A DNA stretch of 64,000 bases from an uncultured Eubacteriaceae bacterium. GTDB lineage: Bacteria > Bacillota > Clostridia > Peptostreptococcales > Anaerovoracaceae. Each line of letters opens with the position of its first letter. The first letter of the stretch is position 1. Positions 23,465 to 58,842 of the stretch are shown here, piece after piece. The position numbers were made by a program, and so were the translations under genes. The stretch lies in contig CAIFEY010000001.1 in the NCBI GenBank assembly GCA_903789635.1, forward strand, positions 124,001 through 188,000. The letters are read 5' to 3'. The notes below the pieces were generated by a model. The model was not told where the DNA came from, did no database searches, and saw only the letters and a list, made by a program, of their open reading frames with translations.

Positions 23465-25480
23465 ATGGCGGAATATCGTGCGCTTTACCGGGAAACGAGG
23501 CCGGAGGTCTTTTCGGAGATTCTCGGGCAGGATCACATCGTGAAGATTCTTAAGCACCAGATCGCGACGGGGACGGTGAGCCACGCGTATCTGTTCTGCG
23601 GGACGCGCGGAACGGGAAAGACGACGACGGCGAGAATCCTCGCGAAGGCGGTCAACTGCACCGCGCCGCAGGGCGAGCGCCCGTGCGGTGTCTGTGATAC
23701 CTGCAGGGCGATCGCGGCCGGCAATTACCTGGATGTCGTCGAGATCGACGCGGCGTCCAACAACGGCGTCGACAACATCCGCGAGCTCCGCGAGAGCGTC
23801 AACTACCCGCCGTCGATCGGCAGGCGCAAGGTCTACATCATCGACGAGGTGCACATGCTGTCCACGGGCGCGTTCAACGCCCTCCTGAAGACGCTGGAGG
23901 AGCCGCCGGAGCACGTCATGTTCATCCTCGCAACGACGAACCCGGAGAAGCTCCCGCAGACGATCCTCTCGCGCTGCATGCGGCTGGACTTCCGGCGTGT
24001 GCCGGCAGAGATCCTGGCCGCGCACATGGCGGACATCTGCAGACAAAAAGGAGTCGGCATCACAGAGGACGCACTGCGCCTGCTGGCCGGAAACGCGGAC
24101 GGCTCCGTCCGTGACTCTCTGAGCATCCTGGAGCAGTGCCTGTCGTCCGGCGAGAAGGAACTGACGAGGGACATCGTTCTCGACTTCCTCGGCACGGCGC
24201 CGGTGGACTTCTTCCTGGACCTGACCGAGAAGGTCATGACCAAGAACGTCTCGGGCGCGTTCATGCTCCTGGACGACGCGCTGCGCGAGGGCAAGGACGT
24301 CCGCCAGCTCATGAAGGACTGGATGGCGCATCTCAGGAACCTGATGATCGCCAAGTACGTGCAGGATCCGGGCGACATGCTGAACCTGTCGAGCGAGAAC
24401 ATCGCGCTGCTGCAGAATCAGGCACTGAAGATCGGCATCTCCGAGCTGAATCACGCGATCGTCACGATCGCGCGGGCGATCAACGACGCGAGATACTCCA
24501 CACAGGCGAGAATCCTGATGGAGGTCACGATCGTCACAATCGCGTCCGGCATGGACTACGGCAAGGGCCAGATCCCGGCGCCGCAGCACACCGTGATCCC
24601 GCAGGCGCGGGCCAGTCAGGCGCCGCAGGGATACCAGCCATCTGCACAGCCGATGCGCGGAGCCCAGTCGCCGCAGGCCTTTGCGCCGGTGCCTCCGCAG
24701 GGCATGCCGGTGAACGCGCAGACGCCTGGCATGATGCCAGGCATGGCGCCGGGAATGGATCCGAGTGCTGTTCAGAATCCGCAGTATGCGGGCGGGCAGC
24801 CGGTGAACGGGACGGCACCTGGCATGATGCCTGGAGCGGCGCCGGGAACGGACCCGAACGCGGCCCAGAATTCGCAGTATGCGGGCGGGCAGCCGGCGAA
24901 CGCACCGGCACCTGGCATGATGCCTGGAGCGGCGCCGGGAATGGATCCGAATGCCGCTCAGAATCCGCAGTACGCGGGCGGGCAGCCGGCGAACGCGCCT
25001 GCACCAGGTATGACGCCGGGAGCGGCGCCGGGAATGGATCCGAGCGCAGCCCAGAATCCGCAGTATGCGGGCGGACAGCCGGCGAGTGCGCCGGCAGGAG
25101 AAGCAGCCCCGGCGGCCCCGCAGGCGGCGCAGCCGCAGCAGGAGCCGGAGCTCTCCGCGCAGGAGCTGCAGGACATCTGGCGCATGACCTTTGAGGAGGT
25201 CGAGCACGAGGTCCCGAAGCTGAACGTCATGCGCAGGGCTTCGCTCGCCGCGATCACGGGGAACCAGTACAAGGTGCTCTGCGAGAACAAGCTCGACGCC
25301 TCGGTGCTGAAGTCGGAGAAGGACTTCCTCGACGCCCGCATGAGCAGAAGGATGGGCAGGCCGATGGTCATGGTCCTGAAATCGGCGCAGGGCGGCAGGG
25401 GAGACGACCGCGAGGAGAAGCTTGAGAAGGAAGCCGAGGAGGCCTCCCGGCTGCTCGGCGTGGACGTCAAGCTCGTGTAA
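23465..25480 (+). CDS. dnaX: DNA polymerase III subunits gamma/tau
   Basis: AYLFCGTRGTGKTTTARILAKAVNC, zinc cysteines CGVCDTCRAI, VYIIDEVHMLSTGAFNALLKTLEEPP; conserved ffs-dnaX-ybaB-recR order. Confidence 0.96.
   Translation: MAEYRALYRETRPEVFSEILGQDHIVKILKHQIATGTVSHAYLFCGTRGTGKTTTARILAKAVNCTAPQGERPCGVCDTCRAIAAGNYLDVVEIDAASNNGVDNIRELRESVNYPPSIGRRKVYIIDEVHMLSTGAFNALLKTLEEPPEHVMFILATTNPEKLPQTILSRCMRLDFRRVPAEILAAHMADICRQKGVGITEDALRLLAGNADGSVRDSLSILEQCLSSGEKELTRDIVLDFLGTAPVDFFLDLTEKVMTKNVSGAFMLLDDALREGKDVRQLMKDWMAHLRNLMIAKYVQDPGDMLNLSSENIALLQNQALKIGISELNHAIVTIARAINDARYSTQARILMEVTIVTIASGMDYGKGQIPAPQHTVIPQARASQAPQGYQPSAQPMRGAQSPQAFAPVPPQGMPVNAQTPGMMPGMAPGMDPSAVQNPQYAGGQPVNGTAPGMMPGAAPGTDPNAAQNSQYAGGQPANAPAPGMMPGAAPGMDPNAAQNPQYAGGQPANAPAPGMTPGAAPGMDPSAAQNPQYAGGQPASAPAGEAAPAAPQAAQPQQEPELSAQELQDIWRMTFEEVEHEVPKLNVMRRASLAAITGNQYKVLCENKLDASVLKSEKDFLDARMSRRMGRPMVMVLKSAQGGRGDDREEKLEKEAEEASRLLGVDVKLV
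24728..25099 (+). repeat. Four in-frame 93-bp (31-aa) tandem repeats in the dnaX linker
   Basis: Unit PGMMPGAAPGMDPNAAQNPQYAGGQPANAPA starting at 24728, 24821, 24914 and 25007. Confidence 0.95.
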
Positions 25481-48120: not shown

Positions 48121-48505
48121 GATGAGGAGAGTCGAACTCCGAGAGGCACGAACGTCGTGAGACCGTCCAGTGGACGGTCGAACAGAGAGTGCGCCGAGCG
48201 ACTGAACGGGGAGAGAGGCGTGCCGGGGAAGGGGCCCCGGCGGACTCTCCTCATGTCCGGCGGGGTCCGAGGGGGTCCTTTTTTCGTGGAGGAGAATCGA
48301 ACTCCGAGAGGCACGAACGTCGTGAGACCGTCCAGTGGACGGTCGAACAGAGAGTGCGCCGAGCGACCGAAGGGGGAGCGAGGCGTGCCGGGGAAGGGGC
48401 CCCGGCGGACTCTCCTCATCTCCGGCGGACCCGAGGGGGGTCCTTTTTTCGTGGAGGAGAGTCGAACTCCGAGAGGCACGAGCGTCGTGAGACCGTCCGG
48501 CGATG
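48121..48505 (+). repeat. Tandem 165-bp structured repeat (2 full copies plus partial third)
   Basis: TCGAACTCCGAGAGGCACG recurs at 48132, 48297 and 48462 (period 165); full units contain GAGGAGARTC/GACTCTCCTC outer arms, GACCGTCCAgTGGACGGTC hairpin and a GGTCC-T6 terminator. Confidence 0.92.
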
Positions 48506-51585: not shown

Positions 51586-52680
51586 ATGAACAACAAGATC
51601 AGCTGGAAATCGGTCTTCACTGTCATGGGCGCTGTGCTCGCATTCAACATCGGCACCGGCTTTGCTACAGGCCAGGAAGTTATGCAGTACTTCTCCGTCT
51701 TCGGATGGTGGTCCGCCCTGACCGCTGTCGCGTTCGCGGCGACAATGGCGATCGGCATTTACTGCCTGGCATACGCGTCCGAGAGGTTCAATCTCACGAC
51801 GGGTGAACAGGTACTCAAGTATTATCTGGGCAAGGGACTCGGAACAGTCATCAATTACTTCTACATTTTCTATCTCTATATGTGCGTGATCGTCATGTAC
51901 ACCGGCGCCGCATCTTCCCTGAAAGAGCAGTACGGCGCTCCGATGTGGGTCGGCGCGGCGATTATCGCTGGCACATGCTGCATAACCAGCCTGTTCGGAC
52001 TTAAGAGCATCGTCAACATCATCAGCAAGATCGGACCGATCCTGATCCTGATCGCGCTCGTCATCTCGCTGATCGCGGTCGTCCGGGGAATCACAAGCGG
52101 CAGCCTGGTGAAAGGCGTAGAACTGGTCTCCTCCGGTAAGATCGAGCACATGAAGGCGTCCAACAGCTGGCTCATCGCCGGCATTATCCTCGCGACCAGC
52201 ACGATTCTGTGGTATCCGAACTTCGCCGTCGAGCTGAAGCAGGAGCACAGCATGAAGAACCTGATGATCGGACAGACGATCGGCAATTCCCTGGTCGGCG
52301 CCGCAGAATTCGTCATGGGTCTCGCGATGATCGCGAACATTTCCCAGGTAGCTGACCTGGATGTCCCGTTCCTCTATGTCGCAAGTCATATCGTCAAAGG
52401 ATTCGGCTCGATCTACGCAATCATGATCTTTGCTGCATTGTTCACGACGACCTGCCCGCTGCTCTGGTCTTCGATCACCCCGTTCGCTAAGGACGGAACG
52501 CCTAAGTACAAGGTGATGGTGGTCGTCGGCACATTGATCGGCTTCCTGGTCGCGATCCTGGTGCCGTACGAGGTCATCATGAACTATGTCTGGGTCGTCT
52601 CCGGCTGGGTCGGCCTTGGCGTCACGGTTATCATGTTCGTCCGTGTGATCTACAACCACTTCAAGTATGGCAAAAAATAA
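51586..52680 (+). CDS. YkvI-family membrane transporter-like protein
   Basis: MGAVLAFNIGTGFATGQEVMQYFSVFGWWSAL...; ~10 TM segments; COG3949-like. Confidence 0.78.
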   Translation: MNNKISWKSVFTVMGAVLAFNIGTGFATGQEVMQYFSVFGWWSALTAVAFAATMAIGIYCLAYASERFNLTTGEQVLKYYLGKGLGTVINYFYIFYLYMCVIVMYTGAASSLKEQYGAPMWVGAAIIAGTCCITSLFGLKSIVNIISKIGPILILIALVISLIAVVRGITSGSLVKGVELVSSGKIEHMKASNSWLIAGIILATSTILWYPNFAVELKQEHSMKNLMIGQTIGNSLVGAAEFVMGLAMIANISQVADLDVPFLYVASHIVKGFGSIYAIMIFAALFTTTCPLLWSSITPFAKDGTPKYKVMVVVGTLIGFLVAILVPYEVIMNYVWVVSGWVGLGVTVIMFVRVIYNHFKYGKK

Positions 52681-52774: not shown

Positions 52775-53656
52775 CTATTCTTCTGCATGGTGCTCGGAAT
52801 GCCAGCGCTGCGTGTACATCATGAACACGCGTGCCGCGGGACTTAAGTCCCCCTGCTTCTTGTACGCGACGCCCAGGGTCCGGTTGAAATGCTCGTCGAA
52901 GTGCCGTATGCAGACGTCGAACGGGATGTCCTTCAGCAGGAGCTTTGGCAGAATGGTGATGCCGAACCCGGCCTCGACCATCTTGATCGCCGCGTAGTCA
53001 TCGTTGAGCTCGTAGGTGACGTTCGGCTGTATCTTATAGGCTCTGAAAATTTCTCCCGCCTCGTAGTCCAGTTTATCCGATGTGGAAATATAGTCTTCGT
53101 CCCGGATGTCGGTGAGCCGGACGTATTTTTTACTCGACAGTCTGTGTCCGCGGGGCAGGACGAGCAGCAGCTCATCTGTGCCGAGAGAGGTGAAGTCGAG
53201 ATCTTTGACCGCATATTCTGAAGTGAACATCAAGTCTATTGAGTTTGACAATATCTTATCCTCCAGCTCCTGAAATCCGCCGATGACAATCTCAAATTTT
53301 ATTTTCGGGTACTGCTCCGAGAAGTCCTTCAGGATTTCCGGAAGCCAATGGTAAGAAATGCTCTGGATCGTCCCGATGCGGATGAATCCGGAGGTCAGGT
53401 TGTTCAGGCTCAGCGCGATCTGGTCGATCTTATTCTCGATTCCGCAGATCTTCTGAAGCTCGTCGACGATGTACTTTGCATTCGGCGTAGGCTCAATGCC
53501 GTTGTGTTTTCGGTAAAACAGCTGAACACCCAGCTGGTTCTCATAGTTCTTCACGATCTGGCTCACGGCCGACGCGGTGTAGCTGAATTTTTCCGCGGTT
53601 ACAGAAAAGTTGCAGGTCTTGTAAACATCCAGTATGATCTCATATTTGTTATTCAT
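52775..53656 (-). CDS. LysR family transcriptional regulator
   Basis: N-terminal HTH YKTCNFSVTAEKFSYTASAVSQIVKNYENQLGVQLFYR; LysR effector domain; divergent from the catabolic operon. Confidence 0.9.
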   Translation of the reverse strand: MNNKYEIILDVYKTCNFSVTAEKFSYTASAVSQIVKNYENQLGVQLFYRKHNGIEPTPNAKYIVDELQKICGIENKIDQIALSLNNLTSGFIRIGTIQSISYHWLPEILKDFSEQYPKIKFEIVIGGFQELEDKILSNSIDLMFTSEYAVKDLDFTSLGTDELLLVLPRGHRLSSKKYVRLTDIRDEDYISTSDKLDYEAGEIFRAYKIQPNVTYELNDDYAAIKMVEAGFGITILPKLLLKDIPFDVCIRHFDEHFNRTLGVAYKKQGDLSPAARVFMMYTQRWHSEHHAEE

Positions 53657-53853: not shown

Positions 53854-55524
53854 ATGGGCAAAGAATATTGGAACGGAGCAGAGGCTGCTCACCGCCGCGT
53901 AATGATGAAAGCCGCAGGATATTCGGATGAGGATATCCGCAAGAAACCGCATATCGGAGTACCGAACTCGTATATGTCCGGTTCCCCTGGTACAGCGCAC
54001 CTGCGTCAGGTGACGGAAGCCGTGAAGGAGGGAATCTGGGCTGCCGGAGGAATCCCGGTGGAGTTCGGAATCCCGGCGACCTGCGGAAACGTGGCCAACG
54101 GTGCAGACGAGATGAAGTACGAGCAGGTCGGAAGAGATATCGTAGCGATGTCCATCGAGTTCGTCTCCAGAGTGCACAACTTCGACGCGATCTGCTGCGT
54201 CGCGAGCTGCGACCTGATCATCGCAGGATGCTACCTGGCAGCATGCAGACTGGAAATCCCGGCGATGGTAGTAACCGGCGGATCCATGCAGGCCGGAAAT
54301 TACTGCGGAAAAACGGTCGTCGAGGCAGACCTGGATGCTGCAAGATTCTCGGGTGCCACAGAGGATGAACTGATGGAGATGGAGGACTGCGTGTGCCCGT
54401 CCTTCGGCGCATGTCCATCCATGGGAACCGCGAATACGATGCAGATGCTCGGAGAGGTCCTGAACCTCGTCATGCCGGGAACATCGACGATTCCGGCTTC
54501 CGACAATGCGAGAATCAGAGCCGCCAGAGCCGCAGGAAAGTACGTCGTTCAGCTGGCCAAGTCCGGACGGACGCCTAAGCAGCTGATCACCAAGGAGGTG
54601 CTGGAGAACGCCATCATGTTCGACATGGCCGTGGCAGGATCGACCAATGCCGTACTGCACATCCTGGCCTATGCGTACGAGCTGGGCATCGACCTCACGC
54701 TTGACGACTTTGAGAAGTATGCGAAGGAGATCTACTGCATCAATGCGGTAATCCCGAGCGGCCCGTACACGGTAGTGGACTTCCACTATGCAGGCGGCGT
54801 CAAGAACGTGATGAAGATGCTGGAGTCGAAGATGCACACGGATGCGCCGACGATGTATGGAAATACCTGGAAGGACATCCTCGACACCGTCGAGGCGAAG
54901 CCGAACGAGGTCATCCACTCGCTGGATAATCCGGTTTCACACGAGCCGGGACTGAAAATCCTCAGAGGAAACATCTCGCCGGCAGGCGCGATCGTCAGAC
55001 CTACCGCGGTATTCGATGAGGTCAAGTACATCAAGGGTGAGGCCAAGGTATTCGACGGCGACCAGCAGGCATACGATGCCATCATGGCCGGAAAGATCGT
55101 GCCTGGTGACATCCTGGTCATCCGCTACGAGGGCTGCAAGGGCGCGCCGGGAATGAAGGAGCTGATGCTCAGCATCGACGCCCTGATCGGAAAGGGCCTG
55201 GATAAGAGCGTCGGACTGATCACGGACGCCAGATTCTCCGGATTCAACTATGGAGCCATCGTCGGCCACGTGACGCCGGAAGCATATGACGGCGGCGTAA
55301 TCGCACTCATCGAGGACGGGGATGTGATCGAGATGGATATCACGAACGGGTTCGTCAATCTGCTGGTTTCCGATGAGGTGCTCGCAGAGAGAAGAAAGAG
55401 CTGGGTTCGTCCGCCGCTGAAGCAGCAGAAGGGTGTGCTGAACATTTACGCGCAGATGTGCAGACCGGCGGAGCAGGGCGGCGCTATGCAGCCTTGGGAC
55501 CTGGATGCGGTTTACAGACCGTAA
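53854..55524 (+). CDS. IlvD/Edd-family dehydratase homologue with substituted ligand motifs
   Basis: Full-length family match (EAVKEGIWAAGGIPVEF, MGTANTMQMLGE, TDARFSGFNYGAIVGHVTPEA) but PGTAHL and SCDLIIAG instead of PCNxHL and CDKxxPG. Confidence 0.88.
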   Translation: MGKEYWNGAEAAHRRVMMKAAGYSDEDIRKKPHIGVPNSYMSGSPGTAHLRQVTEAVKEGIWAAGGIPVEFGIPATCGNVANGADEMKYEQVGRDIVAMSIEFVSRVHNFDAICCVASCDLIIAGCYLAACRLEIPAMVVTGGSMQAGNYCGKTVVEADLDAARFSGATEDELMEMEDCVCPSFGACPSMGTANTMQMLGEVLNLVMPGTSTIPASDNARIRAARAAGKYVVQLAKSGRTPKQLITKEVLENAIMFDMAVAGSTNAVLHILAYAYELGIDLTLDDFEKYAKEIYCINAVIPSGPYTVVDFHYAGGVKNVMKMLESKMHTDAPTMYGNTWKDILDTVEAKPNEVIHSLDNPVSHEPGLKILRGNISPAGAIVRPTAVFDEVKYIKGEAKVFDGDQQAYDAIMAGKIVPGDILVIRYEGCKGAPGMKELMLSIDALIGKGLDKSVGLITDARFSGFNYGAIVGHVTPEAYDGGVIALIEDGDVIEMDITNGFVNLLVSDEVLAERRKSWVRPPLKQQKGVLNIYAQMCRPAEQGGAMQPWDLDAVYRP

Positions 55525-55551: not shown

Positions 55552-56445
55552 ATGGTACTGTTTTTTCGAGTAATTACCATTTTCTTCATTATTGTGCTGA
55601 CGATTTACATCTACAGAGATGCCATCAGGAACAGGGAGAAAGATGAGCCGGTTTCACACTTTGTCGCATACGGAATCATGGGAGCGGTTCTGAACTTCCT
55701 CGATACACTGGGAATCGGCAGCAATGCCACGCAGATGGTGTTCTTCCGGCTTACCAGGCTCAGTCCGGATGAGGACCTGCCGGGCAACGGAAACGTCATC
55801 TTCTCCATTCCGGTCGCGTTCGAGTTCCTGCTCTTCCTGGGGCTGATCGAGGTCGAGCCGGTTACGCTGTTTTCCATGATCGCGGCGTCAATGGTGGGAT
55901 CGTACGTGGGCGCAAAGATCATGACCAAGCTGCCGGTAAACCAGATCAGAGGCGTGCTGGCGGTGCTGCTGCCGATCGTCGCCATCGTTCTCGTGCTTAA
56001 GGTGAACAAGGTCGGACCGTTCGTAATGCTTGGAACCGCAACGGGTCTGACCGGCGGAAAGCTCGTCATCGCGGTTGCGGTGAACTTTGTCCTCGGCGCA
56101 TTGATGAGCGCTGGAGTGGGACTCTATGCCCCTTGCATGGCACTGTGCGCACTGCTTGGAATGAATTTGACGGTGGCTTTCCCAATCATGATGGGATCCT
56201 GCTCACTGCTGATGCCGATCACTTCCATGGAGTTCGTCAAGGCGGGCCGTTACAACAGAAACGCTGCACTTATTGCGATTCCGACGGGCATCGTGGGCGT
56301 ATGGTTCGCCTACGCGGTCGTAAAATCGATGCCGATCTACTATCTTACGATCATCGTCGCGTGCGTGCTCGTGTATATGTCGATCAGCTTCGTGCTGACT
56401 ATCCGCAAGAGCAGTCAGAAGGCACAGACGTCGCAGGCGTCATAG
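55552..56445 (+). CDS. TauE/SafE (TSUP) family permease
   Basis: 8-9 TM; GSYVGAKIMTKLPVNQIRGVLAVLL; GLTGGKLVIAVAVNFVLGALMSAGVG. Confidence 0.8.
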   Translation: MVLFFRVITIFFIIVLTIYIYRDAIRNREKDEPVSHFVAYGIMGAVLNFLDTLGIGSNATQMVFFRLTRLSPDEDLPGNGNVIFSIPVAFEFLLFLGLIEVEPVTLFSMIAASMVGSYVGAKIMTKLPVNQIRGVLAVLLPIVAIVLVLKVNKVGPFVMLGTATGLTGGKLVIAVAVNFVLGALMSAGVGLYAPCMALCALLGMNLTVAFPIMMGSCSLLMPITSMEFVKAGRYNRNAALIAIPTGIVGVWFAYAVVKSMPIYYLTIIVACVLVYMSISFVLTIRKSSQKAQTSQAS

Positions 56446-56494: not shown

Positions 56495-57478
56495 ATGCTG
56501 CTGTTATCCAGAGAAGAAATCAAGAAAGTTGTAGACATGGAAGAGATCATCGACGCTACGGAGCGTGCGTTCGAGATGGTCGCGGAGAATACGGTGGACA
56601 TTCCGCTCAGGACCAAGATTCCTGCACCGGACGGGGAATTCCTGTTCATGCCGTCTTATGCGGAGAGCATGAATGCCGCCGCGCTGAAGGTCATCAACAT
56701 CTTCCCGAAGAATATTGACAAGGGCCTCGTCTCCGCGCCTGCCCAGGTCGTCCTGATGGATGGTTCCACGGGATACGTCATCGCTCTGCTGGACGGAAAC
56801 ACGGTGACCCAGTACCGTACCGGAGCGTCGTCGGGCGTTGCATTCCGCCATCTTGCGAGAAAGGATGCGAAGATCGGCGGTCTGATCGGCACCGGCGGAC
56901 AGGCGGCAACCCAGCTGGAGGCGATGCTGTGTGCCTGCAAAAACCTTGAGGAGGTAAAGGTCTACGACCTGAATGCTGAGAGACTGAACGCTTTCTGCAG
57001 CAACATGCAGAAGGAGTTGGCTAAGTATCAGGTAAAGATCACTCCTGCCGGCAGTGCGGATGAGGCAACCGTAGACGCGGACGTATTCATCACCATGACA
57101 CCTTCCCCGAAGCCGGTCTTCGATGGGACCAAGATTAAACCGGGCTGCACAGTAAGCTGCGTGGGCACATACGAGCCGAACAAGCATGAGCTGGATCCGG
57201 CTCTGCTCCCGAGAACGGCAAAGATCTACTTTGATTCAACCGAGGCCGCACTTGCGGAGACCGGAGACCTGCTGATCCCTATCGCGGACGGCATCATCAC
57301 CGAAGCGGACGTCACCGGAAATATCGGAGACGTCTCCCTGGGCAAGCTCGTCGGCAGAGAGAATGACGACGAGATCATCGTCTACGAGACCGTCGGCGTC
57401 GGTGCGCAGGACCTCTGCGCGGCCAAGGTCATCTACGACAAGGCGCTCGCCGCAGGCGTCGGCACTAACTGGGAGTAA
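56495..57478 (+). CDS. Ornithine cyclodeaminase/mu-crystallin family protein (candidate imine reductase)
   Basis: TKIPAPDGEFLFMPSYAE, GGLIGTGGQAATQLEAMLCACKNLEEVKVYDLNAERL Rossmann motif. Confidence 0.88.
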   Translation: MLLLSREEIKKVVDMEEIIDATERAFEMVAENTVDIPLRTKIPAPDGEFLFMPSYAESMNAAALKVINIFPKNIDKGLVSAPAQVVLMDGSTGYVIALLDGNTVTQYRTGASSGVAFRHLARKDAKIGGLIGTGGQAATQLEAMLCACKNLEEVKVYDLNAERLNAFCSNMQKELAKYQVKITPAGSADEATVDADVFITMTPSPKPVFDGTKIKPGCTVSCVGTYEPNKHELDPALLPRTAKIYFDSTEAALAETGDLLIPIADGIITEADVTGNIGDVSLGKLVGRENDDEIIVYETVGVGAQDLCAAKVIYDKALAAGVGTNWE

Positions 57479-57567: not shown

Positions 57568-58842
57568 ATGCCACATATTAATATCAAGCTGTATCCGGGG
57601 AAAAGTGAGCAGAAGAAGCTCGAGATGGCGAAGGCCGTCAGAAAGACACTGAGTGATGTATCCGGCGTTTGGAAGGAGAGCGATATCTCCGTTTCCGTAG
57701 AGGAAAAGGCTCCGAACCGCTTCGAGAGTGAGACTAAGGACAGCTTCAGAAAGTCGGAGCTGCTCCTGGATTCGGATTATATCAACTATCGTCAGCCGTC
57801 CGGCATGACCGATTACGACATCGATGTCGATCAGTCGCGGTTCGAGTCGAGAATCAAGGTCGTGGATGCGCATACGGAAGGAGAATTCTGCAGGATCGTT
57901 GTCGGCGGAGTTCCGGAGCCTCAGGGTGCGACCATGATCGAAAAGAAGAAATGGCTGGAGGAGCACTGCGATCACATCCGCACGGCGCTGATGCTGGAGC
58001 CTCGCGGACATCACGACATGTTCGGTGCGATCCTCTGCAAGCCGGTGCATGAAGAGGCTGATTTCGGCGTGGACTACATGGAGACGGGAGAATTCCTGAA
58101 CATGTGCGGCCACTGCACGATCGGCGCGGTCACCGTGGTGATCGAGGCAGGAATGATCCCTTCCCATGAGGGGGAGAACACGGTCGTGCTGGACACTCCT
58201 GCGGGAATCGTCAGAACCAAGGCCATGGTGAAGGGCGGAAAGGTGGAGAGCGTTACCCTGACGAACGTTCCGGCGTTCGTCTACCTGGAGAACCAGTCCG
58301 TGAATATCGATGGAAAGGACATTCACTTTACCATCTCGTTCGGCGGAAGCTTCTTTGCGCTGGTGAACACCGCGCAGCTCGACATCGGTGAAATTAACGC
58401 GAAGTCCGTGCCGGCATACACCGAGCTTGGCATGAAGATCCTCCGGAAGATTCACGAGGAGATTCCGGTAAAGCATCCGGAGCTCGATATCGACCAGGTC
58501 GACCTCGTGGAATTCTACGGTCCTACTCCGAACCCGGATTCTGCGGACATGCGGAACGTCGTCATCTTCGGCGACGCGCAGGCAGACCGCTCTCCGTGCG
58601 GAACGGGAACGAGCGCCAAGCTCGCCACCCTGTATAAATGGGGTGAAATTGAGGTCGGCCAGCCGTTCGTCTATGAAAGTTTCATAGGCACGTTATTCAA
58701 GGGGGAGATTAAGGAGCTGACGAAGGTCGGTGATTACGACGCCGTGGTGCCAATGGTAACCGGATACAGTAATCTCACCGGAATCGCTACCTATCTCATA
58801 GATCCGGAAGATCCGCTGAAATACGGATTCTCAATCGGATAA
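57568..58842 (+). CDS. 4-oxalocrotonate tautomerase domain fused to a proline racemase/hydroxyproline epimerase domain
   Basis: N-terminal MPHINIKLYPGKSEQKKLEMAKAVRKTL (Pro-1 tautomerase); then RIKVVDAHTEGEFCRIVVGGVP, NMCGHCTIG and DRSPCGTGTSAK. Confidence 0.88.
   Translation: MPHINIKLYPGKSEQKKLEMAKAVRKTLSDVSGVWKESDISVSVEEKAPNRFESETKDSFRKSELLLDSDYINYRQPSGMTDYDIDVDQSRFESRIKVVDAHTEGEFCRIVVGGVPEPQGATMIEKKKWLEEHCDHIRTALMLEPRGHHDMFGAILCKPVHEEADFGVDYMETGEFLNMCGHCTIGAVTVVIEAGMIPSHEGENTVVLDTPAGIVRTKAMVKGGKVESVTLTNVPAFVYLENQSVNIDGKDIHFTISFGGSFFALVNTAQLDIGEINAKSVPAYTELGMKILRKIHEEIPVKHPELDIDQVDLVEFYGPTPNPDSADMRNVVIFGDAQADRSPCGTGTSAKLATLYKWGEIEVGQPFVYESFIGTLFKGEIKELTKVGDYDAVVPMVTGYSNLTGIATYLIDPEDPLKYGFSIG

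Follow-up and report, generated by a model that had tools for sequence, protein, structure and literature searches.

In dehydratases of the IlvD/EDD family, Mg2+ serves to hold the substrate in place at its C2 side. Catalysis relies on the cluster iron as acceptor of the C3 hydroxyl and on a serine alkoxide as the base for the C2 proton (PMC5770437, PMC11316719). All four Mg2+ ligands were described as fully conserved and Mg2+ binding as universal in the family (PMC5770437), and the C-terminal tail is a further segment that matters (PMC11316719). For members in which the Cys of the PCN motif is missing, the Cys of a Cys-Asp-Gly (CDG) motif was proposed as the substitute cluster ligand (PMC5770437). 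Outside the family, aconitase X (AcnX) dehydrates cis-3-hydroxy-L-proline with an Fe-S cluster as Lewis acid, a serine as base and an aspartate contacting the ring nitrogen, and its product, delta2-pyrroline-2-carboxylate, isomerises to the delta1 form (PMC8184944).

The window studied here (the whole analysed stretch of 64,000 nucleotides) encodes a member of this superfamily, named IlvDx herein. Compared with IlvD, represented by the [4Fe-4S]-type enzyme of E. coli and by the M. tuberculosis and Synechocystis structures, it shares the fold (TM-score 0.91-0.92 to 6ovt), the CDG- and CDK-type Cys of most Bacillota IlvDs, the third Cys, the Ser base, the Glu and one Asp, but differs in the replacement of the Mg2+-ligand Asp by Gly and of the carbamylated Lys by Leu or Asn, and in new residues at C428, F464 and the C-terminus; the identity is about 43% at best and IlvDx stays under the cut-offs for dihydroxy-acid dehydratase (DHAD). 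6-Phosphogluconate dehydratase (Edd) likewise has a CDG-type Cys as putative cluster ligand (its MCDG aligns with ATCGN of IlvDx), but it keeps the Mg2+-site Asp and Lys and is distant in sequence. AcnX is unrelated in fold and sequence and would be an analogue in working only, the logic proposed below for IlvDx being the same (a serine as base, an Fe-S cluster as Lewis acid and a carboxylate at the ring nitrogen). Trans-3-hydroxyproline dehydratase resembles IlvDx in its product, as proposed here, and in the reductase family of its neighbourhood (PMC4113996), but is a non-homologous enzyme of the proline-racemase family. We found no literature linking a DHAD with both D-proline reductase and ornithine cyclodeaminase, and the genome-neighbourhood paper on racemases (PMC4113996) makes no mention of IlvD.

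Family assignment of IlvDx

The gene and the active-site positions discussed below are as follows.
53854..55524, + strand: IlvD/EDD-superfamily protein of 556 aa without half of the Mg2+ site, IlvDx (open reading frame, domains, alignment, tree, model)
54082..54090, + strand: C77-G78-N79, cluster-type Cys kept, Mg2+-ligand Asp of CDG replaced by Gly (alignment)
54208..54216, + strand: C119-D120-L121, the CDK motif with Leu (Asn in basal members) at the carbamylated-Lys position (alignments)
54412..54414, + strand: C187, third cluster cysteine (GAC), invariant inside and outside the clade
55129..55137, + strand: E426-G427-C428, Mg2+-ligand Glu kept, adjoining Pro replaced by a clade-specific Cys (alignment)
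55237..55239, + strand: S462, the serine of RFSG, invariant; catalytic-base role from PMC5770437 and PMC11316719

The frame is open over its 556 aa, and a profile search identified both IlvD/EDD domains (PF00920, 338 bits; PF24877, 217 bits). An AlphaFold2 model (pLDDT 87.2, pTM 0.90), which is without cofactors and has a loop of pLDDT below 50 at residues 80-87 after C77, gave strong structure matches to IlvD/EDD enzymes only, with TM-scores of 0.91-0.92 to the M. tuberculosis and plant DHADs. Both the two-domain homology and the fold thus place IlvDx in the IlvD/EDD superfamily. In contrast, its scores lie under all curated NCBIfam cut-offs for dehydratases, including those of the DHAD models TIGR00110 (551.5 against 618.15 bits) and NF002068 (559.6 against 644 bits, the best match). 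Judged by its sequence, IlvDx is homologous to IlvD/EDD enzymes yet fails the Mg2+/CDK signature of the family, which is why we do not class it as a DHAD. A second IlvD, encoded on another contig of the same genome (L001, G000:C4), is canonical and reads PGH, CDG and CDK. A pseudogene was ruled out, because the IlvDx frame is conserved in 24 genomes. Genes of the IlvDx type are likely annotated at present as DHAD and counted under branched-chain amino acid biosynthesis.

Cluster cysteines of IlvDx

The first alignment comprised IlvDx, 22 close relatives sharing 57-93% identity, and 27 further members of the family, E. coli IlvD among them. A second outgroup sample of 37 more relatives, mostly from Pseudomonadota, brought the outgroup proteins of both samples to 64; a 24th clade member (L068) was placed in the IlvDx clade by the tree and stands outside the 23 aligned. 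The strings SPGTAHL, SCDLIIAG, FGACPSMGTANTM and RFSG, on which the initial annotation was built, are all present in IlvDx where it had placed them. Its reading of the missing PCN Cys as an anomaly does not hold, as E. coli IlvD itself reads PGHxHL without a Cys, and this position is Gly in 36 of the 64 outgroup proteins (27/27 in the first sample, 9/37 in the second). The loss of a cluster cysteine in IlvDx was thus ruled out: [4Fe-4S]-type members normally read PGH and lack a Cys there.

C77 (PAT-C-GN) aligns with the CDG-type Cys, and C77, C119 and C187 are all invariant in the IlvDx clade, forming a predicted three-Cys site of the [4Fe-4S] variant with the CDG-type Cys. As far as can be read from the alignment, the cluster ligands are the ordinary [4Fe-4S]-type set and not the altered part of the protein, and the cluster itself is probably of the [4Fe-4S] type. 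The suggestion that neighbouring cysteines are possibly used is supported for C77 of PATCGN, the aligned alternative ligand, but not for ICCVASCD and AGCYLAAC. Within this Cys-rich stretch C114, C115 and C131 are each present in 13/23 clade members and C126 in 21/23; as only C119 is conserved throughout the clade, a new metal site formed by these two segments was rejected as unlikely.

Changes in the magnesium site

The replacement of CDK by CDL, also pointed out by the initial annotation, turned out to be real and unusual: Lys occupies this position in 27/27 and 37/37 of the outgroup proteins but in none of the 24 clade members, the 23 aligned ones carrying Leu (14) or Asn (9). A second change, which had been missed, affects the Mg2+-ligand Asp of CDG (CDG to CGN), G78 and N79 being found in 23/23 clade members against Asp and Gly in 27/27 proteins outside, with Asp also in 37/37 of the second sample. 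The pair of Mg2+-ligand Asp and Lys is therefore present in all 64 outgroup proteins and in none of the 24 clade members. Only two of the four Mg2+ ligands are kept in IlvDx (D120 and E426), G78 and L/N121 standing in place of the other two, and all clade members are of the CDLIIAG or CDNIIAG type in place of the CDK-x2-P-[GA] signature with its carbamylated Lys. The clade would thus be an exception to the Mg2+ site and carbamylated Lys that structural papers hold to be universal in IlvD/EDD enzymes.

Asp120, Glu426, Thr192, Arg460 and Ser462 are kept in the clade, the serine base in 23/23 members, together with clade-invariant replacements of the Pro of CDKxxPG by A124, of the Pro of YEGPKG by C428 and of the residue following RFSG (RFSG-G to RFSG-F) by F464, and with further invariant changes in the C-terminal tail (C536, R537, Q546, W548). 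The early description as an intact member of altered chemistry is supported in outline, the frame being conserved in 24 species-level genomes, but the altered part is the Mg2+ site and not the cluster ligands. The alignments demonstrate a rewired active site in which half of the predicted Mg2+ site is gone, and IlvDx may work free of Mg2+; since Asp120 and Glu426 are kept, they may still bind a divalent metal, more weakly or in another kind of site.

Phylogenetic distribution

In the maximum-likelihood tree the 24 IlvDx members form one clade (support 100/100), the stem of which is 1.84 changes per site long. The named carriers belong to Lachnospiraceae, Anaerovoracaceae and Peptoniphilaceae, so far within Bacillota only. 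At high identity IlvDx was detected in only 5 of the 391 sampled genomes of the window's class, and no member was found in 299 Pseudomonadota genomes, where the best match was about 40%. Because the gene tree mixes families, with Aedoeadaptatus beside Coprococcus comes and Mobilibacterium beside Faecalicatena, it suggests horizontal transfer, and several independent acquisitions of IlvDx.

Operon organization and the reductase

IlvDx is followed by three co-directional genes, with gaps of 27, 49 and 89 bases, and preceded by a divergent regulator gene.
52775..53656, - strand: divergent LysR-type regulator, beside IlvDx in most relatives
55552..56445, + strand: TauE/SafE (TSUP) family transporter (domain search)
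56495..57478, + strand: OCD/mu-crystallin family reductase, closest solved relative delta1-pyrroline-2-carboxylate (P2C) reductase 6t3e
57568..58842, + strand: 4-oxalocrotonate-tautomerase-type domain with Met-Pro start and proline racemase, in-frame fusion (domains, alignment)

Among solved relatives the OCD-family protein scores highest with 6t3e (250 bits), followed by alanine dehydrogenase (186), mu-crystallin (123) and iminosuccinate reductase (115), and it lies under every curated NCBIfam cut-off (213 against 322 bits for NF004793, 136 against 400 for NF045512). These similarities make it a candidate P2C reductase. At the position of the ornithine cyclodeaminase Asp, which we take to read GGD in that enzyme, the operon protein has GTY and alanine dehydrogenase ADG; a true ornithine cyclodeaminase is thought unlikely because of this GTY.

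The OCD gene adjoins IlvDx in 17 of about 24 loci, while the tautomerase and TauE genes are present in a minority of the loci only. No close OCD partner was found anywhere in the searched genomes of four carriers (G570, G583, G582 and G573), and therefore some members must use another reductase or function differently. At the locus of a basal member (L065, G106:C194), IlvDx is accompanied by an FAD oxidase, a DHDPS-family protein, two Asp/Glu-racemase-like proteins (PRK07475), a sodium symporter, an SDR and a flavin reductase. As the FAD-oxidase and DHDPS superfamilies also occur in 4-hydroxyproline catabolism (PMC4113996), this neighbourhood bears a likeness to that pathway that is only suggestive.

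The operon transporter is 45% identical to a TauE/SafE transporter in the D-proline reductase (prd) cluster of the same genome (L066:9818-10741, G000:C11), which, standing beside the reductase genes, is possibly a carrier for proline-derived acids. Adjoining the LysR gene, the window encodes at 51586-52680 a membrane-like protein of 364 aa for which neither Pfam nor NCBIfam gave a match at E 0.001.

The tautomerase-proline racemase fusion

The fusion frame begins with Met-Pro at 57568, downstream of a purine-rich stretch, and no Shine-Dalgarno sequence could be seen ahead of the internal ATG near 57804. The racemase part keeps both catalytic Cys (NMCGHC and DRSPCGTG) and its closest solved relative is the proven proline racemase of A. 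sticklandii (AsProR, 7pb3, 371 bits), two features by which we assign it as a proline racemase even though it falls under the 556-bit cut-off of NF010576; because both Cys are kept, it is not a trans-3-hydroxyproline dehydratase. It is 70-77% identical to the racemases encoded beside PrdA in the D-proline-reductase clusters of other carriers, and the fused tautomerase domain is 64% identical to the product of a stand-alone gene adjoining IlvDx in L038. The fusion was not seen in other carriers, where racemase-family open frames are of 333-424 aa.

The genome of the window has only two racemase-family genes, and its prd cluster (L066) consists of TetR, PrdC and PrdA without a racemase gene; that of G570 (L125) reads TetR, ProR, PrdC, PrdA. 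The simplest reading is that prdF was relocated into the IlvDx operon and fused with the tautomerase.

Co-occurrence with D-proline reductase

PrdA was detected over its curated cut-off in 17 of the 20 IlvDx carriers searched, with one more fragment at a contig end, and none over the cut-off in carriers G106 and G326. Within Lachnospirales PrdA is present in 11/13 carriers against 8/145 background genomes (p=2e-10), and within the order of the window in 5/6 carriers against 62/192 others (p=0.018), both with counts uncorrected for relatedness. The window's genome also encodes, next to a LysR gene, a second PrdA-like proprotein of 595 aa (853 bits; L067, G000:C11:39180-40883); such a second copy is rare in this order (about 7/198 genomes).

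Proposed function of IlvDx

Substrate, mechanism and direction of the reaction are inferred, as are the cluster type and the metal content. 3-Hydroxyproline would be the most economical substrate, because the operon combines a tautomerase and a proline racemase with an enzyme resembling P2C reductase. We give an even chance to IlvDx being a Mg2+-independent dehydratase of 3-hydroxyproline built on the IlvD/EDD fold, the product of which is converted to proline for D-proline reductase. That the substrate's own ammonium fills the emptied Mg2+ site, in a new 3-hydroxyproline dehydratase feeding the Stickland reduction of D-proline in anaerobic gut bacteria, is put forward more tentatively, at somewhat less than even. 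In the proposed mechanism IlvDx would keep the three-Cys [4Fe-4S]-type site (C77, C119, C187) and the S462 base while giving up the Mg2+ site, and would act most likely on 3-hydroxyproline: Ser462 would remove the C2 proton and the unique cluster iron take the C3 hydroxyl, with Asp120 and Glu426 holding the ring ammonium where relatives use Mg2+ on the C2 hydroxyl, Mg2+ being perhaps dispensable for a substrate that carries nitrogen at C2. The delta2-pyrroline-2-carboxylate so formed would turn into delta1-pyrroline-2-carboxylate with assistance of the tautomerase domain, the OCD-family enzyme would reduce the latter to L-proline, and the fused racemase would convert L-proline to D-proline, which D-proline reductase would use as Stickland electron acceptor. 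No Thr-type trans-3-hydroxyproline dehydratase was found among 26 racemase-family matches in 25 carriers, and AcnX gave a strong match in only 2/25 (G326 and G582), being absent from the window's genome (G000), in which, therefore, neither known 3-hydroxyproline dehydratase was found.

Alternatively, the substrate of the same chemistry could be a linear beta-hydroxy amino acid, such as 3-hydroxyaspartate, 3-hydroxyornithine, serine or threonine, the imine being reduced to an amino acid by the OCD-family enzyme; the loss of a Mg2+ site that binds the C2 hydroxyl suits any C2-amino substrate, and the OCD-family protein also matches imino-acid reductases of the BhcD type, far under the cut-off (175 against 500 bits). 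We consider this a real alternative, though an unlikely one, since the fused racemase of the operon belongs to the proline racemases, the carriers reduce D-proline, and the best solved match of the reductase acts on a cyclic imine (250 bits, against 115 for iminosuccinate reductase). Homology and fold, with TM-scores of 0.91-0.92 to DHADs and a DHAD model as best NCBIfam match, would instead fit a 2,3-dihydroxy-acid dehydratase in which the second metal is replaced or absent and whose 2-keto acid is reductively aminated by an alanine-dehydrogenase-like OCD-family enzyme, alanine dehydrogenase being its second-best solved relative. Against such an activity, which appears distinctly improbable, stand the loss of 2/4 Mg2+ ligands including the carbamylated Lys, the scores under the DHAD cut-offs and the separate canonical IlvD of the genome (G000:C4). 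Loss of ligands called universal could also mark a catalytically dead or regulatory homologue, but no clade member departs from the cluster Cys, the Ser base, Arg460 or Thr192, the protein is full-length, conserved and encoded with enzymes in an operon in most carriers, and the new active-site residues N79, C428, F464 and R537 are fixed rather than drifting, leaving this reading very little room.

3-Hydroxyproline is a constituent of collagen. If IlvDx does dehydrate it, the enzyme would supply a proposed missing 3-hydroxyproline route in gut anaerobes with D-proline reductase, in parallel with the glycyl-radical route for 4-hydroxyproline, and the clade would represent a possible path of an Fe-S dehydratase from hydroxy acids to amino acids.

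Other features of the window

Two tandem arrays were noted elsewhere in the window. The array at 24700-25096 consists of 4.3 copies of a 93-bp unit (85% matches) and is possibly a coding repeat, and that at 48124-48498 consists of 2.3 copies of a 165-bp unit (94% matches), is GC-rich and carries long open reading frames on both strands.
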